Positions 17,233 to 45,702 of a stretch of 64,000 nucleotides of DNA are shown one piece after another; the stretch's first letter is position 1, and each line of letters begins with the position of its first letter. The DNA comes from Norana najaformis (Eukaryota; Annelida; Clitellata; Crassiclitellata; Hormogastridae), in assembly GCA_964023275.1 (NCBI GenBank), contig OZ029914.1:36754424-36818423 (forward strand), written 5' to 3'. The notes beneath the pieces are model-generated. The model was not told where the DNA came from. It did not search any database and saw only the letters and a list, made by a program, of their open reading frames with translations. Made by a program: the position numbers and the translations under genes.

Positions 17233-17892
17233 TCAAGAATGCAAATTCACAACCTCAAACAAAATAGTTCTGATAAGCTCAGAAGTGGAGCCTACCTCTG
17301 CACGAGAATGGTTGTAGTAAAAATCGTCTTGAAGTTCATTATTCGTACGCCGTTCTTCATAGCTTTCATCGTTCCAGTTGTCGCTTCTTCTTCCTCTTAC
17401 ATAGCTAATTTCATTTTCAGTTGGATGACGATACTGGCCTCGACCATTTGTTTCAGAGGAGTCGTCATGGTTATCGGAATCTTTATAAAACCTCGAGTGG
17501 TCACTGCCTTCGATAGTTCTTGCATAGCGTCCTTCGTTCGGCTGTCTACTGTAACTGTTTCCCTGTGACGGGTTAATATAGTCGCGGTAGCCATTTCGCC
17601 CTATTTGATCATTACTGCTTTCATCCGTCGTCAAGCCTAGCCTATCGGTTTCTGGCCGCCTGGACCTCAACATCATTTCTCTTCCGCCGCTTACACTATC
17701 AAGTTCAGCATCTTGGGAAGGTGTTTGTTTAGAAATTTTTACTCTTTTGATGATGACGGAAGCCAGAATAATGACGATGAAGAAAACCAGCGAGGAAGCG
17801 ACAGTCGCAACGATTATGGTGATGAGTTTTGTGACACTGTTGTCGGAATATTTCAGACAGGAACATTTGTAATTCCAGTCACCGACGTTCAC
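17233..17892 (-). CDS. Last exon of receptor gene: end of IPT3, transmembrane helix, cytoplasmic tail
   Basis: Starts in phase 0 after a TACAG acceptor with VNVGDWNYKCSCLKYSD, the closing strand of the third IPT domain. Residues about 23-48 form one hydrophobic helix (LITIIVATVASSLVFFIVII...) ended by KRVK, then about 170 tail residues rich in Asp, Asn, Arg, Ser and Tyr (EISYVRGRR, FYYNHSR), with no recognised domain or canonical ITIM/ITAM. The paralogous exon at 62958-63392 keeps helix and C-terminus but lacks about 75 central tail residues. Confidence 0.85.
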   Translation of the reverse strand: MNVGDWNYKCSCLKYSDNSVTKLITIIVATVASSLVFFIVIILASVIIKRVKISKQTPSQDAELDSVSGGREMMLRSRRPETDRLGLTTDESSNDQIGRNGYRDYINPSQGNSYSRQPNEGRYARTIEGSDHSRFYKDSDNHDDSSETNGRGQYRHPTENEISYVRGRRSDNWNDESYEERRTNNELQDDFYYNHSRAEVGSTSELIRTILFEVVNLHS

Positions 17893-20463
17893 CTGTACAT
17901 TTATTATAAGAAGTGTGTAAATATATGTTGAAAACAAACGGATAAATAAATAAACACAAGTAGGCCTATAGATTACAATTATATGGGTATTGGGAATGCC
18001 ACTTCTACCTTTTCGTTATCAGTTACGAAAGATGCTTAATTTGCTGTAAAAGCTGCTCAACAAAAACATCCACTGCAGTTCGAATCAAATCGATTCAGTT
18101 ATAATTGCAAACTCTTATTTATTTAGAATCAAAAGAATTAATTTGTCGGAATAATTCAGTGAACTCAAACTAGAATCGTGTCAGTTTTGGCCAGGTTAGT
18201 CTTCAGTAAACAATTGTAAGTTATTGATTTCATTGCCTCATAACGATAAAAAGTTTTATTAATAGTGCAATATAAATTGCGGCGTCTTGCATAATTCAAG
18301 GTATTTCATACTCAATTTAACAGTGAGAATAAGCACCATAAAATAGCATTGTTTATAAATTTTATAAGTGCATTTGCACGGTAAGTATATAAATTTGAAA
18401 AACTCCGGATGTTTGACTAACCATAGACAATAAGGTTTAGTTTATTGTATTCGGCTATGATAAGACATGGTAAGTTCCGTTTACTGATCGGCCGGCTGTT
18501 GAGTCAAATGCATTGCGTACCTATTTTGCTTACCATTACTGTATCACAGAAATAGTATCAAAATCACATACAAGTATAGCGATATTTTGATCACAGTAGC
18601 TGATGTCATATGGTGTCTGTACTGGTTTGGTCTTAGGCGGTGTGCATGTCAGTTGGTTATCGGTAAGATCCGTAACGTTGCAGAAGTCATTGCCGAGATG
18701 AATTATATACGAATCTGCATTACAGCAACCACTCATGTTTTCTCCCTGTTTAGAGTTTAAAAAATAACATGTAAGCATAATTAAACAGATATCCCAGAAT
18801 GGGAAAGGTTTTACACAACAACTGACATAGACATCAGTGAACAACTTTGTACCAATTATAAAAATAAAATGGCTTATTTCATATAGTCTAATGAATTATG
18901 AAAATTTTATCAGTCTGATATATTTTAGCATACAATCAGTACTCGGGATTAACCTGTCGACTTTAGAATGGAAGACTGTATATTCCGCTGTAGTCTGCAA
19001 TTAACCAGTTATGGTGAAAACACTGACCTTGATCTGTAGGAATTCGTCAGAAGTCGGATCAAATACACTTTCATCCGGACATGTAAGGCTTGGAGGGAAG
19101 TAAATTTCGAACTGTGTCTTTGTTGGATAATTTCGAAATATATCTTCGCTGTATTCTAAGTAGCCATCGAAGATAACTCCTACGTAAACAATAACTGTGT
19201 CATTGCCGTTTTTCCCATCATAAGTTTGGTTGGTATATAGCTTGTCCTTACGTTGACGATTTCGTTCTGATTTATCCATATTGGACTCATTGTCATTCAA
19301 TCGATCGCCTGTGTAAGGTGAATATTTCTTGCCGTATAAGAAAGCTAAGAAATCGTCCGGAATGTAGATCGGAGGCGATAAACAAATCATCTTAGTACCT
19401 CCTGCTGTTGGAAATTCACACGGCTGAAACAGTTTATAACCAACTTCATATTTCATTTTATCACGCGATGCTAATCATGAAATTCCAAAATCGTTTAAAC
19501 TAGAAATATTACCTATTATAAAACTGTACAGCATGTTTTAAAATGTAATGTAAGTCGTTAAATATAAGGTTAGTTTTAAGATCTGCATATTTTTCCCTGA
19601 AGTAATGGATAATTCATGCTTTATGTATTATTCTGCTATTCTAAGTTTAGTACGGATCTGGAATTTTAGACTGTCTGCATAACATAAAAGTAACTAAGTA
19701 GAGTAGCATTATTAACGAGCAGTGTTGTTTCATGTATTCGCCAGGCGTAATTAACTCATTAGCCAAGTAAAATCTGTTGAAATCGATTGCTACTATTAAT
19801 TAGGAAAGATTCAATCCAGATGATAGATGCTACGTTTGGACATGAACAAACCTAATTAACTGTGACTGCGTTATATTAGTTAATTTCTTGAAAGAACAAT
19901 CTTCAACATGTACAAATTTTTAAACACAAATCAAAGTTCTTAATGATTGATTCAGCTAATGTCTTGACATCAAAGGCATGCCACACTTTTCACAAACTAC
20001 GATAACCGTAACCTATCTTACCCAGCTATTTTGATATCTATCTATTCGACAGCTATCAAAACACTATTGATTATGAATCATATGTTTCGACAAGTTGTGT
20101 CTTAGCATTTCACGTCATTGAAAAAGTCAGTCGATTGGTGATTACCGAAAATGATTCGTTTTTAGTGGATGAACCATCAATTCTCTTTACGACAACTAGA
20201 GTTCGCATGACAGGTCTGATAACAGATGTTAGGTTGTTGCCAGAGATCTCCAACCTTATGCCACCACTAAAATAGCCAGATATTTATTATTTACAATGCT
20301 CAGAAATGCCAGCAGACTGTCATTATATGTAATTATGAAATCGGGTAAGAACACGTTCACGACTCTGACCTTCTGGGTACTGACTTTATTACGTCTTGGT
20401 TTTGGTGCGCCATTAGGTGACGCCTGGTGCAATAGCCCCAGCGCCATACAAGTGTCTAATTAT

Positions 20464-20511
<48 letters not shown>

Positions 20512-23500
20512 GTAATAAAGAATTAGTTTGATAAATTTCTGTATATTCCTTTTAGGGCAGACGCATCTTGATAAGATTTAATGTTCAGGCCAGCATTCCT
20601 TTACAACTTGATACAGATCTACAAATGCAGTGTTCCTAATTTAGTGCATTTAACTTCATTTGGTAATTGTAATTTGTAATTGTTATTAGAAATTTATCTG
20701 GCGCCGCTTCAAGACAGTACAACCTGTGGCGCTCTCTGGCCCAATTGCAGTTAAAGGCCAAGAAGAACAGAAAGTTCATCAGTTAGCAAGTATTGTTCAG
20801 AAAACTAGAAAAGCGCCCAGTGTTTATCTCCCGCACAAATGCAAAACCCAAACAATCGATTTACGTTCAGAATTCACAGATGACACCATGTTTGGAGTTT
20901 CTGGACCATATTGGATCGAGGATGATGAGCAAGAGCCGAATCGGGCCATCGCCAGTTGCACAGGTTTTCCTCACTGTTCTGCAGTTTCTGCACAGTTGAC
21001 AGTGTTCAGTCTTCTCTTGAGCCAGCACATTGGCAAAGGACAGATAACCGACTGGCTGCAGATGTTTCCGGGGTTGATAGTTGAGACAAGAAAGATTTTT
21101 TCTTCCCTTTCTTTACCAAATCCAAGACTGTCCAGGTTGACGACGACATGCAGGTCTGTATGCTCCACTCCAAATGGGCGCCTGTCACCATTCAGTGGTC
21201 GGCAAGTACACGAATGACAGCGAGGTACCGATGAATTAGAACAAAGAACACCGTCCACAGCGCACAAAGAACATTGTGGAATGGAGTAAAATAACGAAAC
21301 TTAGACTCAGTCGCAAAAAACAAGAATTATCGAGCAAAGTCTACGCAAGTCGCAGAAAGTTCCAAATTATAGAGTTAGGCTAAACATGACCAATATGGCC
21401 GCAGGCAGACATGTGCATAATCCACCGCTAATTATACTGTCAGATTTTCACTTTTTGAAAGTACTGTACTCAGCCACACAAAAATAAAATGCAATTGATA
21501 AGATAATTGTATTAATTATGTACAAGATAAAGTTTCGAAAAATCTGTCTAAATTCTTTAAAATGTTAAGCCTTTAGTTAAACAAACAACATGAAGCATCA
21601 TTCTTCTTTATGTCGCATACTTCAACATTATTTTTGCCCTCTTCCTGCTGTTATCTTACCTTAATGTGAGAATTTTTGGATTGACATCATATATCCTTGG
21701 ATTCGGTGCATAAGTAAACGAATTGTTTGTGCTAACATTGAATGAGCCAGGAATTATTTCAACGGTGATGAGCATCGACTTGCCAATAGCTAACACGTCA
21801 GCAGAAGGAGTTAATACTGAAGCGTTAAGTCCTGATCTGAAGATCAATTTAATTAACAAATTAGTACCTAGCAATACTTTTGTTAGAATTATTTTATTTG
21901 TAAGGCAATCTATAAAATTATTGAATTGCAGGGGTCATTACTTGGCCTTTGCTGTTCTTCCTTATGCACAAAATTATGGCCTATTCTTAACTATCGACTT
22001 TCCATCAGAACTGCCCGAAGCATGCGTATTCAGCTGGGAACTTCAATATTAATGCAAAGATATTTATATCCAACAGACACGAAACATTAGGCGTTGCAAG
22101 CAAAGACCTTGGCTTTTGTTGTTCCTTGTTAAATTCAAATATATGTTTGTCTGTATATCTTCTCAATTAGCTAACAGCGTTTTAATAAAAATTTACCCAT
22201 AAGTATTTTAACATAATTATAGTATTTTTGTGGACAATGAACACACAGGAGATTCATATTGTGGTTTATAATATGGAGCTTATGTGCTTAAACCTGGTAA
22301 TAGTTTGTCCCATCAAATATGATCCAAAGTAGACTGCAGAAATGGTACTGTTTAGATCTGACCATAGGCCGATAATTGTAACATGCGTCCCTCCGGCTAT
22401 CGGACCAAAGGTTGGCTCCACGAAGAAGTTAAATGCTGCTTCTATTGAATAAATAAAGGTATTTTTACATTCAATGGCCAAAGACAAATAAGACGAAGAA
22501 TAACAAGTAGCAAACGTTTTTCCAGAAAGACAAAGAATTCTATTTAGTTAGTAAACTACAGAGCTCTGTTTCAAGCTGTCTACGCAAAATTACTCCTAGA
22601 CAAGCATCTACGAAGTCTGCAGAAGACTAAAATGCCATGATTAGGGGCATGAACTTTATTCGATCTTAAATTAACATGACACCTATCCTTTTTGTTGATG
22701 CAGGAGGCGTGATGTTTGCTGCAACAGTTTGAGTGGATGTCTAGAAACATGTGTATCGATGAACGCGATTAAAATTTATTAACAATCTACCTATTTTAAA
22801 AATTCTATGTACATTTCACTACAGTTCTATTTACGAAACGTTTGAAACAGTTCATCGCCGTTCCTTTATAACGATACTTGAACAATCTGTGTATCCAAAC
22901 GCACTGAATTGATAGGCCTCAAATTTGACTCTTAAGATGACAAAGTTGTCTGAGTCTACTCAGCAGCACTCCTAACCCAGTCTCAAGATATCTAGGACTC
23001 ATTTTAAAAACGCATTACGATATGTATGGGTTTTATTGAAGTTTAAATAAACATGTCACCTTTCTTGGTTGTTGTAGGCTTGAATCTTGTTGTCACAAAC
23101 ACATTGGCTGTCGTGACAGCTGTAGCAAACACATGCAAATGGTTAATTTACTTATTTTTAAAAACTGCAGTCAAAGTTTGAAGTTTTACTACGAACTGAA
23201 CTATAGTTTTCTTAGACAACATTTATACAGTGCAACGCCTTAGCTGATTCACTTTGTAAAATAGGACCTGTGTGAATCCGAAAGCCCTAAAATGATTGTC
23301 TTGCATTTGACTCCTAAGAGAATGAGGATCCTTTTCAATTATTCAGAAGCACTCCTAGCTAAGTATCAAATGAATTTATGCATCATTTTAAAGCATATAT
23401 AATTTGGGGCATAAGGCTAATTGATGTTTTAAATTAGTCATCTTTAGCAATCACACGTAAATTATTATTTTAATCATTTGCCTAAAATCTTGTTATTGTT

Positions 23501-26500
23501 TTAACGTCTACAGCAAATTTAACTACAGTTTCGTTATAAGATTTTTGGACCATAGCATCGCATTTGATGATATTACTTTTGAAATCATTAGACCAAATGT
23601 GAAGCCGAAAGTCTAAGTCAATCGACTTCAAATTTGGCTCTTAAGCTGATTCTGAAGAATTGTAATTGATCCAGAAACATTCCTAGTGGTGTTAAGAGAT
23701 ACAGAAATTTTTCTTTGAAAATCGAACAACAGGCGTGAGTTTTATTTCTTTTTAAATCGACATGTCATTTTTCGTGGTTGCTGTACGATTGTTGTCATAG
23801 ATTCAAAGGTTGTTATGACGGCTGTCGCAATCAGAGGTAAATCATTAATTTAACCCTATTTTAATTCTAGCCACTCTTCGTGGTTGCTGTACGCTTGGAG
23901 GTTGTTGTCATAGATTCAAGGGTTGTTATGACGGCTGTCGCAATCAGAGGTAAATAATTAATTTAACCCTATTTTAATTTTAGCCACTTTTAAAGTTTTA
24001 CGACAAATTTAACTGCAATTTTCTTATTAACTTTTTTATAACACTGCATCGCCGCCATTGATGGTAATACTTTTGTACCACTGTGTCTTACGTGAATCCG
24101 AAAGCGCTAAGCCAAATGACTTTTAAATTCAACTCTTATGAGCACAAGAATCTTTTTTATACATTGAGAAATACTCGTACCTAAGTATGAAATAACCCTA
24201 TACGTTATTTTAAAACACATATGGTTAAAGGCACGGGTTTTTATGTTTAACCTAACAAGTCATCTTTCGTAATTGTTGCGCGTTTGGAGCTTGTTATCCT
24301 AAACTGAGTAGTTGTCGTGATGGCTGTCGCAAAACTAAATACAAATTATTAATTTACAAATTTTCTAATATCTTGCTATGGTTGGAGTTCTACAGAAAAT
24401 TTTATTCCAGCTTTCATGTAATTTTTTTATAACAATACATCAAAGTTTCTTTATAACGCTTTAAACTTCTGTAAATTCGAACGTACTGAGCAGATTCAAT
24501 TGAAAACCATCTTTAAGAGCACAAGAATCTTAATAATCTAATCGTAGACCCTCTTACCCAAGAATCACATTCCGAGGTTGCTGGAGGCTCGGAGATTGTT
24601 TTAAAAGATTCAGATTTTGTCGAGACGAACGTCGCAAAATCAAACGTAAATTACCAATTTCACTGTTTTTAAAAAATCTTGGGTTAGTTTAAGGTTTTTC
24701 GATAAAATTTAATCATATTTTAAATTAAACTTTTTCAACAGTACTCAGAAGACCTCTCAGCCTAGAAACAAAGAACTCCTCTATGTTTACAGGCATGAGT
24801 TTGTCCAGCTTTTAAATAAAAAAGACACTTTTCGTGGTTGTTGGAGGCTTGTAGCTTCTTTCCAAAGACTGATGGGTTGTTGAGACGGTAGATCAAAATC
24901 AAAAACCAACCAGTAATTTTATAAATTCTGTATATCTTGCTATTGCTAAACAATTTATGGCAAGTTAAACTGCAGGTTTCTCACACAAATTCTGAAGCAG
25001 TGGGTCAGCTTCGTTAATATAGACTTTTTAGCATTACAGATTAAATAAAACGCCAGCACGTTGAATCAACTGATTTAAAATTTGACTGCTAAGATAACAG
25101 GTTTGTTTTGTACCTAATCGGAGCACCCACAGTCGAACATTTAAAAATTTGGGAGGATTTCATTTAAAAAATGACTAAAACCATGTTTTATTTATATTTC
25201 AAATCGACAGATTACCGTTCGCGGCTGATGTATCCGTGTAGCTTGTTCTGCGGGATTCAGTGGATGACGTGAAGGCTATCGCAAAATCAACTGAAAATCA
25301 CCGTTTCGATATTTCTAAAAATTTTCTGATGCTCAAAGTTATACGGCAAGTTAAAATCAAGTTTTATATTGAGGCTTTCGAAACGGAGCCACGGCATTCC
25401 CTCATCGCACTTTTTAACCCACTGTAACTTTCTGCTTGAAAATCGAAAGATTAGTGGATCTCGCGAAGTACGTCGAGAGATCAAGTGTAAATCACCAATG
25501 TAAAAATATCTGAAATCATCATATTTTTTAAAGTTTTATGGGAAATATAACAATTGTGGAAAATTCATCTACAGGTTTCTCACGAACTTTTAGAAGCTGT
25601 GCGTCGGTTTCGTTTATATTACTTTTTGTTATAATAGACCCTGCAAACTCGGATATGTTAACTTTATTGACTTAAAATTTTAAATTCTAAGATTGTAAAC
25701 CTGTTTGGCATCTACTCAGCAATACTCATAGCCGAGTCTAAAGAGCTCTGGGAGCTCATCTTGCAGAAATAAGACCAAAGGCATGTTATATTTATTTTCC
25801 TCAAATCGACAACTCACCTGGTGTGGTTGCTTCAGGTTCCAAGATTGTGGAGATCGTAAATGCTGTCGAAAAATCAAGTGTAAATCAGAAATTTAAATAT
25901 TGTCAAAAGCCTGCTATTTCTAATAAGGCAAATTAAAAAAGCTCAAGCTTCTCATGAGACTTTTGAAGAAGTACCATGGATTATTTTTATCGCATCCTTA
26001 AACGCAATGTGACACTCTGTTTTAAACTGATTCCTCAGGATTAAGATGGATGTTCCTCATAGACCTATGATCTCTCTCAGATATTTATCAAAAAATCCTG
26101 ATATCATTTGCAAAACGCCGCGTTGAGTTCATTCCCAAAAGGCGCCTCATAAATATAAAATTACAACTGCAATTACGTTTATTAAAAGCATGAACTTTAT
26201 ACAATTTCAGAAGATTAAAGCCACCTTTCGTTGTCGTTGTAGACTTTGAGCTTGTGTTCAAAGACTGAGAGGTAGTCAGCACGGCTGTTGCGAAAATAAA
26301 AGGCACATTGTTAATACAATTATTTCTCTCAAATCTTGCTATTGCTAAAGGATTTATCGAATTTTAGCTATAGGTTTCTCATGAACCTCTTGACGCTCTT
26401 CGCCGGTTTCGCTTATACTACCTCCTTTAAACACTAGAGACTCTACAAATGCGAACATTCTAATCCGATTCAGTAAAAAGTTTGATTTTTAATGTTAAAG

Positions 26501-29500
26501 AGTTGTTAGGCATCTATTCACAAGTACTCTTTTGTTAGGCATCTATTCACAAGTACTCTTAGCCAAGTCTTAAGCGGTCTGTCACGGTTCATTTCCTCAG
26601 TTTATAACGACGTCTTATAGCATCAAAGGCCATTGATGTCGCCCTTCTTCTTTATCCAGCCTTTTGACCAGAAGTACCACCAAACAAGGCAGCGCCGGAG
26701 CAAAGCGGTCCGGGGGCTTTCACTGTAAAGATTTAAATAAAATGCATGTTTCATTTTTTTCTAAAATCGATAAATCACCTTTTGTGGTTGTTTTAGGCTC
26801 GGTGGCGGTTGTGCCAGATTCAGTGGATGTCGTGAAAGCTGTTGGAAATTCAAAGCATAACACCAACTACAGCATTTCCTAAGTTCTTGCTATTCTTAAA
26901 GTTTGAAGGCAAATTTAACACCAGTTGTAACATTCTCCTTGGAAATTGACTCCTCATCTAACAGGTATCTTTTTCCAGATACTCATAATCACTCTCAGAC
27001 AAATACCAAAAAAATACCGACCTCATTTTCAGACACGTTTATTTAAAGGCATGAGCGTTGTACAGTTTTAAAAGCACCAAGTCACCTTTCATAGTCGTTG
27101 GAGACTTGGAGCTTGTGGTCAAAGTCCAAGAAGTTGTCAGGAACGCTGTCGCAAAAGTAAGAGGCAAATTCTTAATACAATTATTTCTTCCAAATCTTGT
27201 TATTGATAAAGGATTTTTGGCAAATTTAACTCTAGGTTTCTTCTGAATCTTTCGACGGTGTCCGTCGGCTTAGCTAATAATACTTCCTTTCAACACTAGA
27301 GATTCTACAAATGCGAACATGTTAATCCGATTCAGTTGAAATTTTGATATTTAAGATTAAAGAGTTGTTTTGTCATCTATTCACCTGTACTCATAGACAA
27401 GTCTCGCGCATTTTGGGAGCATATACTGTGAATATTAAAAGAGGATTCATGTTTCGTCTTTTCTTTAAAATCTACGAATCACCTTTTGTGGTTGTTTTAG
27501 GTTCGGTGGTTGTTGTGTCAGATTCAGTGGATGTCGTGGAGCCTGTTGGAAAATCAAATGCATAACACCAATTAAAACAATTCCTAAGTTCTTGCAATTT
27601 TAAAGTTTGAAGGCAAATTTAATTCCAGTTGTAACATTCTTCTTGGAAATTGACTCATCGGTTAACAGAGATCTTTTTTCAGATACTCAAAATCACTCTC
27701 GGACAAATACCAAAGAATTAATTACATCATTTTCAGACACGTTAATTTAAAGGCATCAGCGTTGTACAGTTTTAAAAGCATCAAGTCACCTTTCGTAGTC
27801 GTTGGAGACTTGGAGCTTGTGGTCAAAGTCCGAGAGGTTGTCAGGACCGCTGTCGCAAAAGTAAGAGGCAAATTCTTAATACAATTATTTCTTCCAAATT
27901 TTTTTATTGATAAAGGATTTTTGGCAAATTTAACTCCAGGTTTCTTCTGAATCTTTCGACGGTGTCCGTCGGCTTAGCTAATAATACTTCCTTTCAACAC
28001 TAGAGATTCTACAAATGCGAACATGTTAATCCGATTCAGTTGAAATTTTGATATTTAAGATTAAAGAGTTGTTTGTCATCTATTCATCTGTACTCATAGA
28101 CAAGTCTCGCGCATTTTGGGAGCATATACTGTAAATATTAAAAGAGGATGCATGTTTCGTCTTTTCTTTAAAATCTACGAATCACCTTTTGTGGTTGTTT
28201 TAGGTTCGGTGGTTGTTGTGTCAGATTCAGTGGATGTCGTGAAAGCTGTTGGAAAATCAAATGCATAACACCAATTAAAACAATTCCTAAGTTCTTGCAA
28301 TTTTAAAGTTTGAAGGCAAATTTAACTCCAGTTGTAACAATCTCCTTGGAAATTGACTTCTCATCTAGCAGGTATCTTTTTCTAGATACTCAAAATCACT
28401 CTCGGACAAATACCAAAGAATTAATTACATCATTTTCAGACACGTTAATTTAAAGGCATGAGCGTTGTACAGTTTTAAAAGCATCAAGTCACCTTTCGTA
28501 GTCGTTGGAGACTTGGAGCTTGTGGTCAAAGTCCGAGAGGTTGTCAGGACCGCTGTCGCAAAAATAAGAGGCAAATTCTTAATACAATTATTTCTTCCAA
28601 ATCATTTTGTTGATAAAGAATTTCTGGCAAATTTAACTCTAGGCTTCTCCTGAATCTTTCTTAGCTAATATTACTTCCTTTCAACATTAGAGATTCTACA
28701 AATGCGAACAAGTTAATCCGATTCAGTTGAAATTTTGATATTTAAGATTAAAGAGTTGTTTTGTCATCTATTCACCTGTACTCATAGACAAGTCTCGCGC
28801 ATTTTGGGAGCATATACTGTGAATATTAAAAGAGGATTCATGTTTCGTCTTTTCTTTAAAATCTACGAATCACCTTTTGTGGTTGTTTTAGGTTCGGTGG
28901 TTGTTGTGTCAGATTCAGTGGATGTCGCGGAGCCTGTTGGAAAATCAAATGCATAACACCAATTAAAACAATTCCTAAGTTCTTGCAATTTTAAAGTTTG
29001 AAGGCAAATTTAATTCCAGTTGTAACATTCTTCTTGGAAATTGACTCATCGGTTAACAGAGATCTTTTTTCAGATACTCAAAATCACTCTCGGACAAATA
29101 CCAAAGAATTAATTACATCATTTTCAGACACGTTAATTTAAAGGCATGAGCGTTGTACAGTTTTAAAAGCATCAAGTCACCTTTCGTAGTCGTTGGAGAC
29201 TTGGAGCTTGTGGTCAAAGTCCGAGAGGTTGTCAGGACCGCTGTCGCAAAAATAAGAGGCAAATTCTTAATACAATTATTTCTTCCAAATCTTGTTATTG
29301 ATAAAGGATTTTTGGCAAATTTAACTCCAGGTTTCTTCTGAATCTTTCGACGGTGTCTGTCGGCTTAGCTAATATTACTTCCTTTCAACATTAGAGATTC
29401 TACAAATGCGAACATGTTAATCCGATTCAGTTGAAATTTTGATATTTAAGATTAAAGAGTTGTTTGTTATCTATTCACCTGTACTCATAGACAAGTCTCG

Positions 29501-35500: not shown

Positions 35501-38500
35501 TCCGTACCTATTTCCAATTGCTGCACCGACGTAACTGATTTCAAATACAAGCAGTAACAAGGCATCAAGCACAAAAACGAAATGGCAGCAGGGGTCGTAA
35601 TACATAAGAAACTACAAGAATATATCAACATTTTACATTGCAATATCTTTTAAAACCACTGACGATTTTATTTAGCCACTGAGTTTTAAAGAGAACTTCC
35701 ACGCATTCGTCATGCAGGGCCACTTGCTATATTGAGTTCATGCTTGAAATACTCAGACCTTCCCTCAACTGAGAGCACTCCACCACTTTTCATAAGCACA
35801 ATTTTAAATAGTTGAAGGGCTTGTGTGTTACGTGTTATTTGTGACACTTTATTAGACCTTATTTTGTGTAACTAATTTCTGAAACGGCAATGACATATTC
35901 TAATATAATATAATTACACGGGCAGGCTAACATACCCGAATCCGAGACTGGCACATGCTACTCTTGCGCTGGCATTCGTAAACAAGTCGTCACACACTGT
36001 TCCCCAGACTCCTGAATAGTAGATCTCCAATCGTCCTTGCATTGAATCATTCCCGTAAGAATTGTTTAATCGCACGGCATAATTTGCATTGTCTTCTACG
36101 AGTGCAATCAATTGCAATTTCGATTTCACATAAAGAAGCATCACCAAATTACTGTTAGCTGTCTATGCATGTAGAAAATGTTGGTTAGTGAACCACGCGT
36201 GATTGAAAGAGTCTAGGTGGAAGACAATGCGTGTACAACATCTTGTCGAAGTTAACTGCATTTGACACTACTGCATGGAAGTTTTAGCATCGACGAAACG
36301 CGAGCGGGATTTCCTTATCCGACGTCGCATATATATGCGAGATAGATCGTCAAAATATTCCTAATATGCCTGCGACCTAAAGGAAGCATTATCCCGTTTT
36401 TATCATTGAATGATCGCTAGAAGTAGAAACTGCTGGTTCGCGTTCGCTTAAAAATTATCATATTTCAAGACCTTATGTCTATTAGCTGGAAGTTAAAAAA
36501 TCAATTGTTGTAGCACATCACCAAAGAAAGGCGCAAAATGAGATGTACGTATGGTGAAGCGAAAACTTAGTTCGGTATTAGTAAAACAAAATATTTAGTA
36601 CAACACGATAGCGGCTGTTGTACGGTTGTGATATTCACTCACCACAACTAATTGAGACATCTTCACTGTGACTGCAATCGTGCACGCCCCACTCATTATG
36701 GGGGCACTGTTGTATACCAACTTCGGTTCCATTGCAATTCACGCTGTCCAGCCATATTTGACCTGTTCCACTTCCGTACCTATTTCCAATTGCTGCACCG
36801 ACGTAACTGATTTTAAATACAAGCAGTAACAAGGCATCAAGCACAAAAACGAAATGGCAGCAGGAGTCGTAATACATAAGAAACTACAAGAATATATCAA
36901 CATATTACATTGCAATATTTTTTAAAACCACTGACGAATTTATTTAGCCACTGAATTTTAAAGAGAACTTATACGCATTCGTCATGCACTTGCTATATTG
37001 AGTTCATGCTTGAAATGACTGATTCAGACCTTCCCTCAACTGAGAGCACTCCACTACTTTTCATAAGCACAATTTTCAATAGTTGAAGGCCTTGTGTGTT
37101 ACGTGTCATTCGTTACACGTTATTTAGACCATTTTTGTGTAACTAATGTCTGAAACGGCAATGACATATTCTAATATAATATAATTACACGAGCAGGCTA
37201 ACATACCCAAATCCGAGACTGGCACATGCTACTCTTGCACTGGCATTTGTAAACAAGTCATCACACACTGTTCCCCAGACTCCTGAATAGTAAATTTCCA
37301 ATCGTCCTTCCTTTGAATTATTCCCATAAGAATTGTTTAACCGCACGGAAAAATTTGCAGTGTCTTCTACAAGTGCAATCATTTGCAATTTCCATTTCAC
37401 ATAAAGAAGCATCACCAAAATGCTGTTGGCTGGCTATGAATGTATGGAAAGTATGATCAGTGGACCACGCGTGATTGAAAGAGTATACGTGGAAGACAAT
37501 GTGTGTACGTCATCTTGTCGAAGTTGACTGCACTTGACACTACTGCAAGGAAGTTTTAGCATCGACGAAACTCGAGCGGGTTTAAAGATGTCAGCCTGCC
37601 TATTTACTAAACCTACTGCATTTTTAAAATAGACCTATTTAAATGGCGACTTTACAACTCCCTCTTATCCTTATCTGGCGTCGCGTCAATATGCGAAATA
37701 GATGGTCAAACTTTCTTTCTATAATCTCTGATTCATATTTTCTATTGTTACCGAGATTCCTAATATGCCTGTGACCTAAAGGAGGCATTATCCCGTTTTT
37801 ATTATTGAAATATCGCTACGAAATAGAAACTGCCGGTTTGGTTCCAAAATAATATATTTCAAGACCTTATTTCTATTGGAACATATATTAACTGAAAGTT
37901 TATAAATCAATTGTTGTAGACATCACCAAGGAAAGTCGCAAAATTAGATGTACATATGGTTAAGTGAAAACTTAGTTCGGTATTAGGAAAACAAAATATT
38001 ACAACACGATAGCGGCTGTTGTACGGTTGTGATATTCACTCACCACAACTAATCGAGACATCTTCACTGTGACTGCAATCGTGCACGCCCCACTTATTAT
38101 GGGGGCACTGTTGTATACCAACTTCGGTTCCAGTGCAATTCACGCTGTCCAGCCATATTTGACCTGTTCCACTTCCGTACCTATTTCCAATTGCTGCACC
38201 GACGTAACTGATTTCAAATACAAGCACCAACAAGGCATCAAGCACAAAAACGAAATGGCAACAGGAGTCGTAATACATAAGAAACTACAGGAATATATCA
38301 ACATTTTACATTGCAATATTTTTTAAAACCACTGACGAATTTATTTAGCCACTGAATTTTAAAGAGAACTTATACGCATTCGTCATGCACTTGCTATATT
38401 GAGTTCATGCTTGAAATGACTGATTCAGACCTTCCCTCAACTGAGAGCACTCCACTACTTTTCATAAGCACAATTTTCAATAGTTGAAGGCCTTGTGTGT

Positions 38501-41500
38501 TACGTGTCATTCGTTACACGTTATTTAGACCTTATTTTGTGTAACTAATGTCTGAAACGCCAATGACATATTCTAATATAGTATAATTACACGAGCAGGC
38601 TAACATACCCAAATCCGAGACTGGCACATGCTACTCTTGCACCGGCATTTGTAAATAAGTCGTCACACACTGTTCCCCAGACCCCTGAATAGTAGATCTC
38701 CAATCGTCCTTCCTTTGAATTATTCCCATAAGAATTGTTTAACCGCACGGAAAAATTTGCAGTGTCTTCTACAAGTGCAATCATTTGCAATTTCCATTTC
38801 ACATAAAGAAGCATCACCAAAATGCTGTTGGCTGGCTATGAATGTATGGAAAGTATGATCAGTGGACCACGCGTGATTGAAAGAGTATACGTGGAAGACA
38901 ATGTGTGTACGTCATCTTGTCGAAGTTGACTGCACTTGACACTACTGCAAGGAAGTTTTAGCATCGACGAAACTCGAGCGGGTTTAAAGATGTCAGCCTG
39001 CCTATTTACTAAACCTACTGCATTTTTAAAATAGACCTATTTAAATGGCGACTTTACAACTCCCTCTTATCCTTATCTGGCGTCGCGTCAATATGCGAAA
39101 TAGATGGTCAAACTTTCTTTCTATAATCTCTGATTCATATTTTCTATTGTTACCGAGATTCCTAATATGCCTGTGACCTAAAGGAGGCATTATCCCGTTT
39201 TTATTATTGAATTATCGCTACGAAATAGAAACTGCCGGTTTGGTTCCAAAATAATATATTTCAAGACCTTATTTCTATTGGAACATATATTAACTGAAAG
39301 TTTATAAATCAATTGTTGTAGACATCACCAAGGAAAGTCGCAAAATTAGATGTACATATGGTTAAGTGAAAACTTAGTTCGGTATTAGGAAAACAAAATA
39401 TTACAACACGATAGCGGCTGTTGTACGGTTGTGATATTCACTCACCACAACTAATCGAGACATCTTCACTGTGACTGCAATCGTGCACGCCCCACTCATT
39501 ATGGGGGCACTGTTGTATACCAACTTCGGTTCCAGTGCAATTCACGCTGTCCAGCCATATTTGACCTGTTCCACTTCCGTACCTATTTCCAATTGCTGCA
39601 CCGACGTAACTGATTTTAAATACAAGCACCAACAAGGCATCAAGCACAAAAACGAAATGGCAACAGGAGTCGTAATACATAAGAAACTACAAGAATATAT
39701 CAACATTTTACATTGCAATATCTTTTAAAACCACTGACGATTTTATTTAGCCACTGAATTTTAAAGAGAACTTCCCCGCATTCGTCATGCAGGGCCACTT
39801 GCTATATTGAGTTCATGCTTGAAATGAGTGATTCAGACCTTCCCTCAACTGAGAGCACTCCACCACTTTTCATAAGCACAATTTTAAATAGTTGAAGGCC
39901 TTGTGTGTTACGTGTTATTCGTGAACCGTTATTAGACCATTTTTTGTGTAACTAATGTCTGAAACGGCAATGACATATTCTAATATAATATAATTACACG
40001 GGCAGGCTAACATACCCAAATCCGAGACTGGCACATGCTACTCTTGCACTGGCATTTGTAAATAAGTCATCACACACTGTTCCCCAGACTCCTGAGTAGT
40101 AAATCTCCAATCGTCCTTCCTTTGAATTATTCCCGTAAGAATTGTTTAACCGCACGGAAAAATTTGCAGTGTCTTCTACAAGTGCAATCATTTGCAATTT
40201 CCATTTCACATAAAGAAGCATCACCAAAATGCTGTTGGCTGGCTATCAATCAACAGAAAGGTTAGTCACTGAACCACGTGCGATTGAAAGAGTATAGGTG
40301 GAAGACAATGTGTGTACATCATCTTGTAGAAGTTGACTGCACTTGACACTACTGCAAGGAAGTTTTAGCATCGAGCGGGATTAAAGATGTCAGCCTGCCT
40401 ATTTACTAGACCTACTCCATTCTTAAAATAGACCTATTTAAATGGCGACTTTACAACTGCCTCTTATCCTTATCTGGCGTCGCGTCAATATGTGAAATAG
40501 ATGATCAAACTTTCTTTCTATGATCTCTGATTCATATTTTCTATTGTTACCGAGATTCAAAATATGCCTGTGACCTAAAGGAGGCATTATCACATTTTTA
40601 TCATTGAATGATCGCTACGAAATAGAAACTGTTGGTTCGGTTCCAAAATTATCATATTTCAAGACCTTAGTTGAAAGTTTAATAATCAACTGTTGTAGCA
40701 CATCACTAAGGAAAGTCGCAAAATTAGATGTACGTATGGTGAAGTCAAAACGTAGTTCGGTATTAGGAAAACAAAATATTTAGTACAACACGATAACAGC
40801 TGTTATACGGTTGTGATATTCACTCACCACAACTAATTGAGACATCTTCACTGTGACTGCAATCGTGCACGCCCCACTCATTATGGGGGCACTGTTGTAT
40901 ACCAACTTCGGTTCCATTGCAATTCACGCTGTCCAGCCATATTTGACCTGTTCCATTTCCGTACCTATTTCCAATTGCTGCACCGACGTAACTGATTTTA
41001 AATACAAGCAGTAACAAGGCATCAAGCACAAACACGAAATGGCAACAGGAGTCGTAATACATAAGAAACTACAAGAATATATCAACATTTTACATTGCAA
41101 TATCTTTTAAAACCACTGACGATTTTATTTAGCCACTGAATTTTAAAGAGAACTTATTCGCATTCGTCATGCAGGGCCACTTGCTATATTGAGTTCATGC
41201 TTGAAATGAGTGATTCAGACCTTCCCTCAACTGAGAGCACTCCACCACTTTTCATAAGCACAATTTTAAATAGTTGAAGGCCTTGTGTGTTACGTGTTAT
41301 TCGTGAACCGTTATTAGACCTTATTTTGTGTAACTAATGTCTGAAACGGCAATGACATATTCTAATATAATATAATTACACGAGCAGGCTAACATACCCA
41401 AATCCGAGACTGGCACATGCTACTCTTGCACTGGCATTTGTAAATAAGTCGTCACACACTGTTCCCCAGACCCCTGAGTAGTAGATCTCCAATCGTCCTT

Positions 41501-44500
41501 CCTTTGAATTATTCCCATAAGAATTGTTTAACCGCACGGAAAAATTTGCATTGTCTTCTACAAGTGCAATCAATTGCAATTTCCATTTCACATAAAGAAG
41601 CATCACCAAAATGCTGTTGGCTGGCTATGAATGTATGGAAAGTTTGATCAGTGGACCACGCGTGGAGAAAGAGTCTAGGTGGAAGACAATGTGTGTACAT
41701 CATCTTGTCGAAGTTGACTGCATGGAAGTTAGGATCGACCAAATGCGAGCGGGATTAAAGATGTCAGCCTGTCTATTTACTAGACGTACTCCATTTCCAA
41801 AATAGATTTATTTAATTGGCGGCTTTAGAGACTTCTTATCCTTATCCTGCGTCGGGTATCTGCGCGATAGATCGACAAGCTGTCTTTCTATGATCTCTGA
41901 TTCATACTTTCTACTGTTACCGAGATTCTTGATATGCCTGTGACATAAAGAAGGCATTATTACATTTTTATCATTGAATGATCGCTACGTATTAGAAAGT
42001 GCTGGTTCTGTTCCAAAATCATTTCGGCGAACAGGGACACTATTAAAAACGTCACGGAGGTGCTTGGCCGTGTGTCGAAATCTGGAACTACAACAGCGGC
42101 TGCGGCTTTGCTGATTGTCGACGTCGTAAAAGCGAAACATGCTGCTACAGCAAGAAAGGCGTTCCCTGCGGTTCTCCGCTCTAGGGAAAATGCTCAGCGA
42201 TTAAATCATTGATTTCCTAAAGGAGCTGGCGGCCACAGTGGAGGTGGCAAGTTGAGTCCGGGCGGACAAGAGTTTCGAAGTATTCAATATTTGAACTGCC
42301 CTTTGACGTTTACGCAGTCTGCCGATGGTGGTTTTGTATTTTAAATGATGGTTGAAGTAATGCGTGTATCAGATCTATACCCGACTTTTTCGATTCAAAT
42401 AAATGTTCAACTCAGCATGACTAGAGGAACATTGTAACTCGACAAAATGATTGTAATTACAAAGCAAAGTTGATATTTATATTCATATACATTTGACTCA
42501 AACCATCTAAAGACATCATGCGTTGTAGTATCTAAGGAGAGAACCTAAATAGTCAAAACAATGATATCCAGGTTTATTCTAAGGAAGCAATCTACAACTA
42601 TGGCTGTCATTATCTAAAGGTCTCTTAGATACGAACGCCATCACTGCCAGGGATAGTAACAATCCTGTTCATAAATTACTGCACTGGCACAATATCCCCA
42701 AAAGCATTCCTTTAAAGTACATTTTCTCTAATCTATAACTCCCTGCAGTATTCACAAGCTACTTATCTTCGCAGACTCTTCATTAACTAACCACCCCGTT
42801 CTACCCAATCATCCTCTTATCTGATTCTTCCTCGTCTTCCAGGAACTAATCATTTTAATTTCTCTAACCGATCCATTCATCACATCCACCCATTCCCCCA
42901 TTCACCGTCTATGATAAACAATTTAATTTATACGGTTATGTCGCGCTGGTGTCTTATGCCCACAAGGTTTTCAACCGATGGTGCAACAAAGCTAAGCCCT
43001 AATCAGTTCATTATCCAGATCTTGTCCACTAAGACAAAAAGAAGCATCCTACGTTAGAAGAGCAATTTGAAGAGGCAATTATGTAGAGGACGAAATGAAG
43101 CGAGCGAGTGAGCTGAATTAACAGATACAGTTGAAGAGTTCCAATTTCTAGATCCAGCAGGCGAGGAAGCCCATTCACCAAGAACAGTTCTAGAACTAAA
43201 TATCAACAGAGAAAGGCAGTCAGATGATCTGGTTGATTAACGACAAATTTGAGAATGAGGACTGATTTCAAGTATTGTGGTGGTCAGAGTTCAATGTTTT
43301 ATAAACTGCACAGTTCAATTTCAAATGATCCTTTACTGAACAGGAGGCCGGTACAGATATTTAAAAAGGGAGATTATTTTCACCTGTTAGAACTATAACC
43401 AAAGTCGGATGACTATAGGGCATCTCACCTTCGAAGTTGACTGGTTGAAGAGGAAGAGCCTAGTAATCTCTATATCGGTTAATCTGGCCGTGGAGGGGGC
43501 CTATAGATCGGATTCGACTGGCGAGGTCGACCTTAATTCTCGAGCGGGGTGCCGAAGCCCCCTTCTGCTCATTCTGTCCTAACAAGCATCTTAAAGGCAG
43601 GACATCAAAGCACTCTTTCAGCAGAGATTTAGAAATGATATCGATGAAACACGCTTCATTAGGTGAAGAAAATATGAGTCTGGGAAACTCTGCAAGATTT
43701 ATGGGCTTCAAGCTGTCTAGCATAGGAGGTGAAGCAGTCAATACTCAACTCCTGGATGACTGAAGGCAAGAAAATACATTTTTACTCTTCATGTCCGTCT
43801 GGAGTTGACAGGAATTTTGCTAGGCTCTATTCTATTGTTTTTGATATACGTATCTGACCCTAGCATTCCATTCAGTCATTTCATTTATATTATTTGTTGA
43901 GTACGAACTCTTTTTGTGTCATATATCTATGATTGTTTAGATTTTTTTCTCTTTCAGAAGAGAACTCATACCAGTTGCTGATTTTTCCAAGCAGATAGAT
44001 TATTTTTAAATTGAGGCAATAGTCACAGAATTTGATAGCAATTAACTTTATAAAATTTGCTGCCGAAGCTTGAATTTACCTCCCATACCCATAGCATGAA
44101 TGCTACAGATGATGGTAAGGTCGGACTTCCAAAAACAGGTTAATAAATTGATAAATAACCCTTACTGCATCTCACAACACATATGCATTACACGGTGTAT
44201 AGCAATTACATAGGTGGTTAAAACAGGTTACATCACGAGAATATATAATAAATAGAGATGTGAAAACACTACGATTCAGAAAACCAATTTTGCACTAATT
44301 TAACTCATTTCGATTGAGATGAATATATTGCAACGTTATACATTTGGTTGTACGTCCACTGTTATGGTTGATTGGGTACCTGTTGTCGAAGGCATTCTAG
44401 GTGTAGTTGGTGGCGGGGCAGCTGTAAATGGTTCAGTCGTAGTTGAAGTGGTATTTGTACCTGTTGTCGAAGGCGTTGTAGGTGTAGTTGGTGGCGGGGC

Positions 44501-45702
44501 AGCTGTAAGTGGTCCAGTCGTAGTTGTAATGGTACTTGTAGCTCCATTGCAAACTACACAAGGGTACAAACAGGATCAAATACGATTGTGAAGAATGTAG
44601 AATATTTCCAGTCATATAAAACTTGTTGGCCTATCAACTCTAGTCTTATACTATAAAAATATAGCACTATCATCACGCGATCTGTAGCCAGCATTAATAA
44701 CCAACTGATGATAAATGGGAAAATTCTAAAGCGCAACTAATAAAACTAACAATTTATACTGACGAGTATGATATCCAAAATTTTAATTTCAAATCCTATA
44801 TGCCACTTACCGTACTGAACATAGTATTTCAACCAGGACACAGAGAATGGGACAGAGCAGCTGTTACCGTGTGTTATGTTTGGGTTTATGGAAATGGGAA
44901 GGCGGTGGGTTAGATGGATCAGGATATAATTTCTTCACAAGGTGGAGATTTTTTGAACGAAGAGCCTGTGAAGTAATAGATAGAAGAACTTGAGACAGGT
45001 GGTGGCAGGTGAATGACGGATGGGATATACAAACGGAGAATTTGCGAAATTCGGGAGAGAGATCGTTTGAGAGACAAGGCGCAGTGTGGCATATGGAAGT
45101 TTCAGATAAGTAGAGTTGAGTAGTTACTAGAGGATGGGCAAGAGTGATGTAAAAGGATGAACGAGTAGAGCTGAGTAACTGAATGGTAAAAAGTGCGAAG
45201 GTAAGTAGGTTGAGAATCCTGCAGAGAGTTAAAGAAAGGACTTTGAAATAAATGTGTTTGTGGATTTTCAGCTAGTACAGTGGTTTAAAGATAGGAGCGA
45301 TATCATGAATTTTGGATGATATGAAGAAGCTTTATATGAGTGGATTCAAAACAAGGAAAATATATTACAGTGGTCAAGCCTGTAATGGACGATAGAGGTA
45401 GGAGATGGTATACAGTTTTAGAATCGGGCATAGATCAAATAAGGCGAAGGGTACGAATGAAAATGAATAAAACAGGCGCGCGATCGGCAGGAGATGTGAT
45501 TTGAACACCAGAGCTGTGGGTACCGTGCAGTCTATTTTGCACTTCGAGACCACTACAAGTATATAGCAGGAAAGTCTTAAAACTCTATATAAAGGCTATA
45601 TTCTTACAGTTTGCATACAAGTAGGTCGAATCCAAACATGCGTAAACTCTTACCTGTTGCAAAAAATTGAAAACACAGCCCAACAATTAGTAGCAGCTCC
45701 AT
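17233..45702 (-). CDS. SRCR-mucin-IPT transmembrane receptor (about 32 exons, about 1,539 residues)
   Basis: Seen, in transcription order: signal exon 45654-45702; Pro/Thr-rich exon 44380-44541; five SRCR domains of two exons each (41557 down to 35371); 19 intact Thr/Ser-rich mini-exons (31513 down to 23060); five exons spelling three plexin-type IPT domains (22441 down to 18572); last exon with one transmembrane helix and tail (17892-17233). Every junction has a usable splice site and matching phase (1-1 for all repeated modules, then 2, 2, 0, 0, 0), giving 4,620 nt with no internal stop. Known: SRCR domains bind polyanions, microbes and proteins; IPT repeats with this spacing occur in plexins and MET/RON. 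The tail shows no RasGAP or kinase domain. Inferred: type I surface receptor. Oddities: very repetitive, and transposons sit in the intron between stalk and SRCR array. Missed or alternative exons are possible. Confidence 0.75.
18572..18745 (-). CDS. IPT exon e (phase 0-0)
   Basis: 174 bp after a CTAAACAG acceptor, closed by a GTATGT donor. It encodes GENMSGCCNADSYIIHLG, then NDFCNVTDLTDNQLTCTPPK. The pattern ...G..C.VT.LT..QLTC.PP is diagnostic of plexin/MET-type IPT domains. It continues the IKGENM motif split across the preceding junction. Confidence 0.8.
19028..19423 (-). CDS. IPT exon d (phase 0-0)
   Basis: 396 bp, acceptor GTTTCAG, donor GTCAGT. It encodes PCEFPTAGGTKMICLSPPIY (end of the IPT2 core), a polar loop rich in Asp, Asn, Lys and Arg, then VYVGVIFDGYLEY, FEIYFPP and FLQIK. 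Order and spacing match plexin IPT domains (v.vGF..D....F.Y.P.P......L.IKG.N). The polar insert (about residues 35-75 of the exon) is longer than usual. Confidence 0.8.
20146..20266 (-). CDS. IPT exon c (phase 2-0), short
   Basis: 121 bp between TTTTAG and a GTAATC donor. With the AG of the previous exon it reads SGGIRLEISGNNLTSVIRP, the classic IPT start (SGG..I.I.G.NL.S). It was found because the phases of exons b (2 out) and d (0 in) required a linking exon; this one fits exactly. Confidence 0.78.
20464..20508. repeat. (TAA)n microsatellite
   Basis: About 15 TAA units in the intron between IPT exons b and c region, next to a GC-richer 60-bp piece (20390-20455) that could be the end of a small interspersed element. 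Confidence 0.85.
20726..21217 (+). other. Unrecognised open frame inside a receptor-gene intron
   Basis: 163 codons from GCGCTCTCTG-type start context on the plus strand, opposite to the host gene, between IPT exons b and c. No domain recognised on either strand. The antisense frame (20971-21267) is also open, which is common in transposon remnants. I do not assign a function; probably decayed mobile DNA. Confidence 0.2.
21660..21836 (-). CDS. IPT exon b (phase 2-2)
   Basis: 177 bp after CTTCAG with a GTAAGA donor. It encodes SGLNASVLTPSADVLAIG, then SFNVSTNNSFTYAPNPRI and YDVNPKILTL. This closes IPT1 (F.Y..NP) and opens IPT2. Sequons suggest glycosylation. Confidence 0.8.
22294..22441 (-). 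CDS. IPT exon a (phase 1-2), first IPT
   Basis: 148 bp after ATTCAATAG. It encodes EAAFNFFVEPTFGPIAGGTH and VTIIGLWSDLNSTISAVYFG, a clear IPT beginning (P..GP..GGT.V.I.G). Its phase 1 start fits directly onto the mini-exon stalk. The donor (GTTTAA) is weak. Confidence 0.78.
23060..31513 (-). CDS. Array of Thr/Ser-rich mini-exons encoding a mucin-like stalk
   Basis: Nineteen intact units, all phase 1-1, in transcription order: 31454-31513, 31088-31147, 30705-30752, 30282-30341, 29885-29944, 29577-29636, 29181-29240, 28874-28933, 28493-28552, 28186-28245, 27790-27849, 27483-27542, 27086-27145, 26779-26838, 26225-26284, 25818-25862, 25216-25275, 23875-23934, 23060-23119. Seventeen are exactly 60 bp; the others are 48 and 45. 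Two types alternate: A (FTTSTESGTTATEPKTTTK) and B (VLTTSRTLTTSSKSPTTTK), each preceded by ACAG and followed by GTGA/GTAA-type donors. Total about 371 residues, very Thr/Ser-rich, expected to be O-glycosylated. Decayed units lie near 22690, 23766, 24254, 24570 and 24830. The unit at 31088 has a GC donor. Confidence 0.8.
23766..23985. repeat. Local tandem duplication of about 110 bp around one mini-exon
   Basis: Two adjacent near-identical copies of TTCGTGGTTGCTGTACG... through TTAACCCTATTTTAATT. The copy at 23875-23934 keeps a possible donor (A then GTGGCT); the one at about 23768-23822 has lost the donor and a few bases. Confidence 0.75.
26779..29944. repeat. Tandem repeat of about 700 bp, each unit holding one A and one B mini-exon
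   Basis: B exons at 27086, 27790, 28493, 29181 and 29885 are spaced 704, 703, 688 and 704 bp; A exons keep the same rhythm. Introns between them are nearly identical across units, for example 27300-27560, 28000-28260 and 28690-28950. This indicates recent unequal exchange or gene conversion. Outside this block the spacing is looser, at 300-600 bp. Confidence 0.9.
31750..33580 (+). mobile_element. Polinton/Maverick-like fossil (protein-primed DNA polymerase B region)
   Basis: The 33010-33560 stretch resembles the N-terminal part of family B DNA polymerases of Polintons: a segment with NLLLLADWENQHYGW and, near 33482-33530, VRVPYIICADFEALN. The region is richer in GC than its surroundings. It is a decayed fragment with many breaks, old, lying in the intron between the mini-exon stalk and the SRCR array. 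The parts upstream of 33000 are not recognised. Confidence 0.6.
33600..34070 (+). mobile_element. hAT transposase C-terminal (dimerisation domain) fragment
   Basis: From about 33835 the plus strand reads LEFWHSRNTIYPKLSALAED, then ASQAYVERIFSVAGILSTG and RRYRM. This is the hAT dimerisation motif (L.FW....YP.L..LA...L..PAS....ER.FS.AG.....R). No N-terminal catalytic part is seen. Plain DNA transposon remnant adjacent to the Polinton-like fossil. Confidence 0.75.
34100..34620 (-). other. Unclassified remnant with a faint histone-fold resemblance
   Basis: Minus-strand frame 34416-34664 contains RGVSRRLEQDALVFISAMIL followed by SRDLLEEAL and QKLTLVLR, spaced somewhat like a histone fold (helix, long central helix, K.T). 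The frame runs into the truncated SRCR exon. It may be mobile-element debris; the resemblance is weak. Confidence 0.2.
34625..34718 (-). pseudogene. Truncated sixth SRCR first-half exon
   Basis: Matches the first 90 or so bases of the SRCR exon-1 units (acceptor side, EDTANFSVR then NSYGNDSKEGRLQIYYS) but has a TGA where the intact units have a Leu codon, and the homology breaks after IYYS. The second half exon is missing. It is the 3'-most unit of the SRCR array. Confidence 0.75.
35371..36095 (-). CDS. SRCR domain 5 (exons 35936-36095 and 35371-35534)
   Basis: Two exons, phase 1-2 and 2-1, totalling 324 nt (108 residues). Landmarks: VRLNNSYGNDSMQGRLEIYY, SGVWGTVCDDLF, VACASLGFG | YVGAAIGNRYGSGTGQIWLD, CPHDEWGVNDCSHSEDVSISC. 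All standard SRCR positions are present. It is the most divergent of the five. Confidence 0.88.
36643..37366 (-). CDS. SRCR domain 4 (exons 37207-37366 and 36643-36806)
   Basis: Same two-exon layout and phases as its neighbours. EGRLEIYYSGVWGTVCDD in the first exon; GTGQIWLDSVNC and WGVHDCSHSEDVSISC in the second. The introns flanking it are nearly identical to those of domain 3. Confidence 0.88.
38044..38768 (-). CDS. SRCR domain 3 (exons 38609-38768 and 38044-38207)
   Basis: Intact SRCR domain, differing from domains 2 and 4 by only one or a few residues (for example TNAGARVAC for TNASARVAC). Its repeat unit of 1.40 kb is almost identical to the neighbouring ones including introns, so this copy is recent. 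Confidence 0.88.
39446..40175 (-). CDS. SRCR domain 2 (exons 40016-40175 and 39446-39609)
   Basis: Intact SRCR domain in the same 1-2-1 phase layout. The antisense strand of its second exon is also open over 85 codons, identical to that at domain 3; this is a shadow, not a gene. Confidence 0.88.
40828..41557 (-). CDS. SRCR domain 1 (exons 41398-41557 and 40828-40991)
   Basis: First SRCR domain of the receptor. The acceptor is TTGTAG, the internal donor GTATGT, the final donor GTGAGT. Phases 1, 2 and 1 make the whole two-exon cassette symmetric, so it can be added or skipped without frame change. Residues include EDNANFSVRLNNSYGNNSKE and GNGTGQIWLD. Confidence 0.88.
41750..43455. other. Intronic stretch 5' of the SRCR array, mostly unclassified
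   Basis: No exon recognised. Near 42070-42180 a plus-strand segment is Cys-rich (GCGFADCRRRKSETCCYSKK) before a stop, possibly mobile-element debris. A pyrimidine-rich piece lies at 42780-42910, and 43070-43310 matches the repeat at 13870-14120. Confidence 0.4.
43460..43741 (-). mobile_element. CR1/L2-like LINE fragment
   Basis: The minus strand reads CFIDIISKSLLKECFDVLPL, matching the start of the RT domain in the LINE at 50290 (CALDAILIALLKECFDVLGP). Short and degenerate. Confidence 0.5.
44380..44541 (-). CDS. Pro/Thr-rich exon of receptor gene (phase 1-1)
   Basis: 162 bp, giving 54 residues once the split codon is counted: two copies of a roughly 27-residue motif around GPLTAAPPPTTPTTPSTTG and EPFTAAPPPTTPRMPSTTG. 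Bounded by an AG and a GTACCC donor with phase 1 on both sides, matching the signal exon before and SRCR exon after. Mucin-like, expected O-glycosylation. Exact ends are less certain than for the SRCR exons, because alternative AG/GT pairs exist inside the repeat. Confidence 0.6.
44860..45500. repeat. Interspersed repeat shared with 48545-49270
   Basis: Purine-rich sequence resembling 48545-49270 (for example GGAGATGTGATTTGAACACC near 45490 and GGAGACGTGATTTGAAAACG near 49213). Probably antisense 3' LINE sequence. No gene. Confidence 0.5.
45654..45702 (-). CDS. Signal-peptide exon of receptor gene
   Basis: Encodes MELLLIVGLCFQFFAT and ends in phase 1 at GTAAGA. Homologous to the first exons of the two-Ig genes (6977-7025 and 58785-58833), as is the upstream flank. 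Assignment to the SRCR receptor rests on order, strand, distance and phase; transcript data would settle it. Confidence 0.7.

Follow-up and report, generated by a model that had tools for sequence, protein, structure and literature searches.

A predicted receptor combining SRCR, mucin and IPT modules

The window analysed here, 64,000 nucleotides of contig C2 in the Norana najaformis genome assembly (608 Mb, 17 contigs), carries on its minus strand a predicted gene, gene A, which is probably one of at least three neighbouring mucin-IPT-TM receptors. A block with five SRCR domains sits in one of its introns and would be spliced in as ectodomain. Within the literature and proteins searched, we found no earlier description of this domain order, and gene A most likely belongs to a family of surface-recognition proteins that is being reshaped fast.

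The gene A model runs from 45702 to 17233 over 33 exons, with consistent phases under predicted splicing and without an internal stop. It encodes 1,463 amino acids plus a stop (4,392 nt), the first stop being the last codon, which ends at 17233 (Table 1). The initial annotation had proposed an exon chain closing without an internal stop, and this part stood; its estimate of size, about 32 exons and 4,620 nt, had to be revised, the difference lying in the mini-exons. From the N-terminus, the predicted protein comprises a signal peptide, a short mucin exon, five SRCR domains, a mini-exon mucin stalk, IPT domains, one TM and a tail; its hydrophobicity profile has one N-terminal peak and one TM peak. 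An HMM search of this protein for SRCR and IPT/TIG domains had also been suggested, and Pfam returned SRCR at E 1.1e-133 in five stretches and TIG at E 8.5e-9 in two stretches at E ≤ 0.1. Other Pfam matches stayed below the cut-off (for example DUF7633, 26.9 bits vs 27, inside the SRCR part), and Rfam gave 0 matches across the window at gathering scores. Judged from the sequence, the predicted exon chain is more than chance: the lengths and AG-GT sites of its IPT exons are shared by paralogs, and its SRCR splice contexts are alike.

Table 1. Predicted features of gene A and neighbouring genes (window coordinates)
Feature	Position	Strand	Detail	Basis
Gene A exon 1	45654..45702	-	start codon and signal-like peptide MELLLIVGLCFQFFAT; phase 1 donor GTAAGA	six homologous leader exons, conserved upstream DNA
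Gene A exon 2	44380..44553	-	short P/T/S mucin exon, 174 nt	homologous to paralog C 15.4-kb open frame
Block without match in paralogs B/C	31739..42655	-	five SRCR pairs, broken sixth half-exon, hAT fragment	alignment, 10,917 bp
SRCR 1	40828..41557	-	exons 41557-41398 and 40991-40828	
SRCR 2	39446..40175	-	exons 40175-40016 and 39609-39446	
SRCR 3	38044..38768	-	exons 38768-38609 and 38207-38044	
SRCR 4	36643..37366	-	exons 37366-37207 and 36806-36643	
SRCR 5	35371..36095	-	exons 36095-35936 and 35534-35371	
Broken sixth SRCR half-exon	34627..34710	-	in-frame stop; omitted from gene A model	
Mini-exon mucin stalk	25818..31513	-	15 symmetric phase 1-1 exons, tandem units of ~0.7 kb	
IPT exons e1-e5	18572..22441	-	22441-22294, 21836-21660, 20266-20146, 19423-19028, 18745-18572	TIG domains
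Gene A last exon	17233..17892	-	membrane-proximal segment, single TM, 171-aa tail with ten tyrosines, stop	
Paralog B TM/tail exon	62961..63401	-	receptor gene B; IPT exons just above window	
Ig-like gene	276..7025	-	three exons (7025-6977, 2811-2482, 616-276); secreted two-domain protein, 239 aa	homologous leader
Ig-like gene, second copy	52227..58833	-	58833-58785, 54760-54431, 52567-52227; 239 aa	

The SRCR exons lie where the initial annotation had put them, on the minus strand. Each domain is encoded by two exons, of 160 and 164 nt, with near-identical splice contexts among the five pairs. With six cysteines per domain (30 in all five), the model has the SRCR domains with conserved cysteines that define the SRCR superfamily. 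The annotated mini-exon stalk and single TM were likewise recovered: the stalk comprises 291 amino acids, 64% of them T/S/P, without Cys, and there is a single TM peak. Its mini-exons measure 60 nt in 13 cases, 48 in one and 45 in one. Four more candidates, at 31147 (GC donor), 25275, 23119 and 22718, were excluded by judgement, so that the number of mini-exons is uncertain by about four.

When the C-terminal 558 amino acids were scanned alone, TIG reached E 3.6e-12, with three stretches at E ≤ 1, and phmmer matched the IPT part to Plexin-A1 (7e-5) and MET (7.3e-5) in the PDB. Of the three plexin-type IPT domains annotated originally, the plexin/MET type is therefore borne out and the count in part, with two firm predictions and one weak. 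A tail free of RasGAP and kinase domains had been described, in agreement with our scan of these 558 residues, which found neither at E ≤ 1; no Pfam signalling domain was found in the tail, and no Sema or PSI domain at E ≤ 0.1 in the Pfam scan of the 1,463-aa model.

Among the candidates scored, the predicted IPT-TM part is without a close homolog. The 558-aa IPT-TM-tail part had none at E ≤ 0.001 among 8,000 protein candidates, and when the full-length model and residues 905-1400 served as queries against proteins of about 800-2,560 aa, 7,987 scored candidates gave eight matches at E ≤ 1, all of which list TIG and are generic TIG matches. The best had E 8.2e-9 and 32% identity over 23% of the query, and the only organism named for any of them is Caulobacter flavus. 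The database searched includes animals; both searches scored only proteins sharing exact words, and distant or mispredicted relatives could escape. Elsewhere in the assembly, on contig C3 (467-478 kb), two adenosine-deaminase-growth-factor-like proteins, recognized by eye, have a C-terminal IPT/TIG domain (L032 and L035), and a further TIG match lies near them at C3:488239.

Neighbouring paralogs lack the SRCR block

Two paralogs, B and C, follow the mucin-IPT-TM plan of gene A, and SRCR domains were not found in them. The tail of B lies in the window and its remainder above, C lies below the window, and each has IPT exons and a TM. IPT exons e1 to e5 measure 148/177/121/396/174 nt in A and C and 148/177/121/426/174 nt in B, where e4 is 30 nt longer, and their AG/GT splice sites fall at the same places in all three genes. 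The mucin exon is shortened in A (which has SRCR in addition), roughly half a kilobase in B by alignment, and giant in C, where a 15.4-kb open frame of 5,143 codons (about C2:36730264-36745693) consists of 54-bp repeats, equal to 18 residues, and stops interrupt both other frames. Introns of A and C are 98.5-98.9% identical near the tail and 84.6% identical between IPT e1 and e2; from these sequences, the tail end of the receptors looks homogenised between copies and the membrane-distal end free to change. Positive selection on IPT e1-e3 was considered and is unsupported (pN/pS 0.86-0.95, no P below 0.34); the near-neutral values could mean weak constraint.

Aligned to B and/or C, gene A is covered almost throughout, the stalk via many-to-many repeat matches, with the block of Table 1 as the one long uncovered stretch; the only other uncovered run of at least 200 bp is 43307-43597. 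Dispersed repeats account for the matches at 42656-43306, so that collinearity is taken to resume at 43598 (B) or 43766 (C), where the collinear matches end. The block occupies the phase-1 intron that separates mucin exon 2 from the mini-exons of the stalk. Because B and C share the plan without SRCR, and A aligns with them except at 31739-42655, the base plan of these receptors would most simply be mucin-IPT-TM, with the SRCR domains of gene A as an insertion. Gain in A takes one event as against two losses, in B and in C, and on this parsimony argument over three genes we infer that the block was gained in A. The initial proposal that SRCR domains replace the Sema part of a plexin-like receptor is not supported, given the base plan to which the paralogs point and with no Sema or PSI found, whereas its broader idea of a recognition-type receptor assembled by module (exon) shuffling is supported at sequence level. 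Since paralogs with and without the SRCR block lie side by side here, and a related array of SRCR units is 0.2 Mb distant, the locus lends itself to the study of how a surface receptor may gain domains.

The SRCR exons are constrained and have relatives on the same contig

Alternatively, the block might be a passenger in the intron that is spliced out, leaving gene A to make a mucin-IPT receptor only. We regard this as unlikely, although several features fit it: the block has no match in B or C; skipping it would keep the frame, as the exons on either side are in phase 1; and it also holds, contrary to an SRCR-headed receptor, the broken half-exon and a hAT transposase dimerisation fragment (33703-34002 on the plus strand, PF05699, 1.7e-10). 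Against a passenger, all ten SRCR exons have kept open frames, compatible phases and splice sites. Moreover, differences among the five copies, which are 94-98% identical, lean synonymous, with 62 synonymous changes over 692.7 sites vs 56 nonsynonymous over 2547.3 sites in the 10 pairs (pN/pS 0.25), although part of this signal may predate the insertion. Comparison of gene A with L041, an SRCR locus on the same contig, gave a dN/dS of 0.16-0.27. By these measures the SRCR codons of gene A appear constrained; both this constraint and the duplication of the five copies may be older than the arrival of the block. We therefore favour the spliced-in ectodomain, and the joined SRCR-stalk-IPT form is presumably transcribed; the DNA would equally allow a transcript in which the SRCR exons are skipped, or one that ends after them.

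L041 is a 2.9-kb piece, at C2:36.566 Mb, of a related SRCR array that spans C2:36.56-36.58 Mb with a 1.38-kb period, ~0.2 Mb from gene A. It shares the 1.38-kb SRCR unit including introns, at ~74% DNA identity, and its SRCR protein halves are 89-94% identical to those of gene A. Since the DNA identity falls well below the 94-98% among the gene A copies, L041 would be a relative of the gene A unit and not its direct donor. Across the eight loci compared, identity over the first SRCR half was 39-53% on other contigs (5/5 loci) and 56-75% on C2 (2/3 loci). Contig C2 also harbours a very large SRCR cluster (36.35-36.69 Mb and 37.8-38.03 Mb on the minus strand, 38.15-39.0 Mb on the plus strand) with runs of 1.38-kb, 1.59-kb and 2.35-kb units, an extent that is a lower bound based on 150 of 508 candidates scored. 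Within the 304 kb covered by the HMM scan, strong SRCR profile matches were confined to gene A and one split SRCR at 36690/36683 kb, whose two half-exons lie 64-71 kb below the window. No IPT exon match was found beyond it within the 49 kb examined, so that in the regions examined SRCR joined to IPT is seen in gene A only.

Receptors alternate with secreted Ig-like genes behind homologous leaders

On the minus strand, a stretch of 264 kb (C2:36674424-36938423, window included) contains six leader exons whose upstream DNA is conserved, and two kinds of gene alternate behind them, secreted Ig-like genes and mucin-IPT receptors. Two complete Ig-like genes and the second receptor tail (62961-63401) lie in the window, all absent from the initial annotation, and above the window three pairs of Ig-like exons follow a third leader of the Ig-like kind. 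The label "Ig-like" is a pattern call: the proteins have no Pfam match, the model of domain 2 (pLDDT 52.9) finds B7-1 as its best PDB match (TMq 0.58, E 6.6e-3; none at E ≤ 0.001), and that of domain 1 has a pLDDT of 38.4. Between the two copies, domain 2 has a dN/dS of 1.77 on only 14 changes, from which we draw no claim of selection. Degraded partial second Ig-like exons with stops are found ahead of the receptor A leader (47194-47373, minus strand) and ahead of the receptor C leader (C2:36750435-36750631).

The window also contains a Mab-21/cGAS-like family gene on the strand opposite to the receptors, recognized by a Mab-21_C domain (PF20266, E 9.3e-15) at 10898-11356 (+), the frame staying open as far as 12240; the region 8565-9912 is partly duplicated. 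The segment 10891-13011 recurs below paralog C (C2:36710925-36713125) at 91.7% identity, which suggests that the Mab-21/cGAS-like stretch is part of a duplicated unit.

Leader, Ig-like, SRCR and IPT exons could form one transcription unit with alternative leaders and ends, yielding a secreted Ig-like form and a membrane SRCR-IPT form, an arrangement that is compatible with a spliced-in SRCR ectodomain and that we deem improbable. The leader exon and its upstream DNA are indeed common to Ig-like and receptor genes alternating on one strand, and the part of the Botryllus fuhc literature drawn on here describes linked genes for a secreted and a membrane protein, some of whose transcripts are joint (PMC3691228); however, the third exon of each complete Ig-like gene closes the frame with a stop, and a separate leader heads each receptor. 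Least probable of all is that the SRCR and IPT exons are two separate genes: genes with SRCR domains alone are common, and the contig has a large SRCR cluster, but no signal-peptide exon was found at 43.9-41.56 kb under criteria by which the same scan recovered the gene A leader, SRCR exon 1 has to be preceded by a phase-1 exon and the closest leader found ahead of it is that of gene A, a homologous leader precedes gene B, where SRCR was not found, and the block's flanks also occur in the paralogs that lack it. Together with the open 33-exon chain, the signal-exon scan and the shared flanks support the single gene model of the initial annotation.

Proposed working of the receptor

The usual ligands of SRCR domains are polyanions or proteins. 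In the predicted receptor with a spliced-in ectodomain, the SRCR head would bind a ligand, possibly a microbial or self surface, and the stalk, whose O-glycosylation is proposed from its composition, would extend this head away from the membrane, with the IPT domains making up the membrane-proximal base. As no catalytic domain was found in the tail, we propose that its tyrosines could recruit cytoplasmic adaptors.

The receptor may also be linked to the neighbouring Ig-like proteins. Taken further, the array might be a self/non-self recognition complex, in which pairs of a secreted Ig-like protein and a mucin-IPT receptor are repeated under duplicated leader cassettes, heads are swapped by insertion or expansion (SRCR in A, a mucin of ~5,000 residues in C), and the TM and tail are homogenised; we put this forward as a speculative and rather doubtful extension. 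Should the cluster turn out to be polymorphic and to be expressed where individuals or surfaces make contact, it would qualify as a candidate recognition locus with a new composition, a secreted Ig-like gene beside a mucin-IPT receptor.

Comparison with known systems

Like plexins and MET/RON, gene A has IPT domains before one TM helix, and its IPT part weakly matches those of Plexin-A1 and MET in sequence. Relative to the plexin domain order (PMC6374515) and to MET/RON, gene A has a mucin stalk and SRCR domains instead of Sema, PSI, RasGAP and kinase domains. As all four were searched for and not found, we rejected its classification as a plexin or MET.

Tandem six-cysteine SRCR domains and clustered genes are shared with SRCR receptors such as DMBT1, M130-like proteins and the invertebrate expansions. 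Among the 120 matches listed of 4,512 for the SRCR part were DMBT1-like proteins from molluscs and echinoderms as well as one from the sponge Ephydatia, not described as DMBT1-like, with unnamed metagenome proteins at the top; none of these 120, all within proteins of about 300-945 aa, has TIG (PF01833) in its precomputed Pfam list. The main text of a 29-species SRCR survey, in the version consulted, mentions IPT, TIG and mucin 0 times (PMC10855680). In the text portions covered by our literature search, no paper pairs SRCR with a TIG domain or IPT, and in two of the papers where the terms co-occur, IPT refers to other proteins.

Two recognition systems offer parallels, which we do not put forward as homology. 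TgrB1/TgrC1 of Dictyostelium belong to a transmembrane TIG/IPT multigene family acting in self recognition, a likeness to the gene A family; these amoebozoan proteins are described, in the part of the source used, without mention of SRCR domains or a mucin stalk, both of which gene A has (PMC12324515). In a recognition locus of Botryllus, a secreted gene (fuhc-sec) lies next to a membrane gene (fuhc-tm), much as secreted and membrane genes neighbour each other here, but the Botryllus membrane gene carries Ig domains, whereas here it is a mucin/IPT/SRCR gene (PMC3691228). Finally, gene A combines the P/T/S-rich repeat region and one TM that define transmembrane mucins, and its family resembles them in the single TM and in having a long exon of P/T/S repeats (5,143 open codons in paralog C). 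Vertebrate mucins have SEA/EGF-type membrane-proximal domains; in the gene A family, IPT domains take their place.
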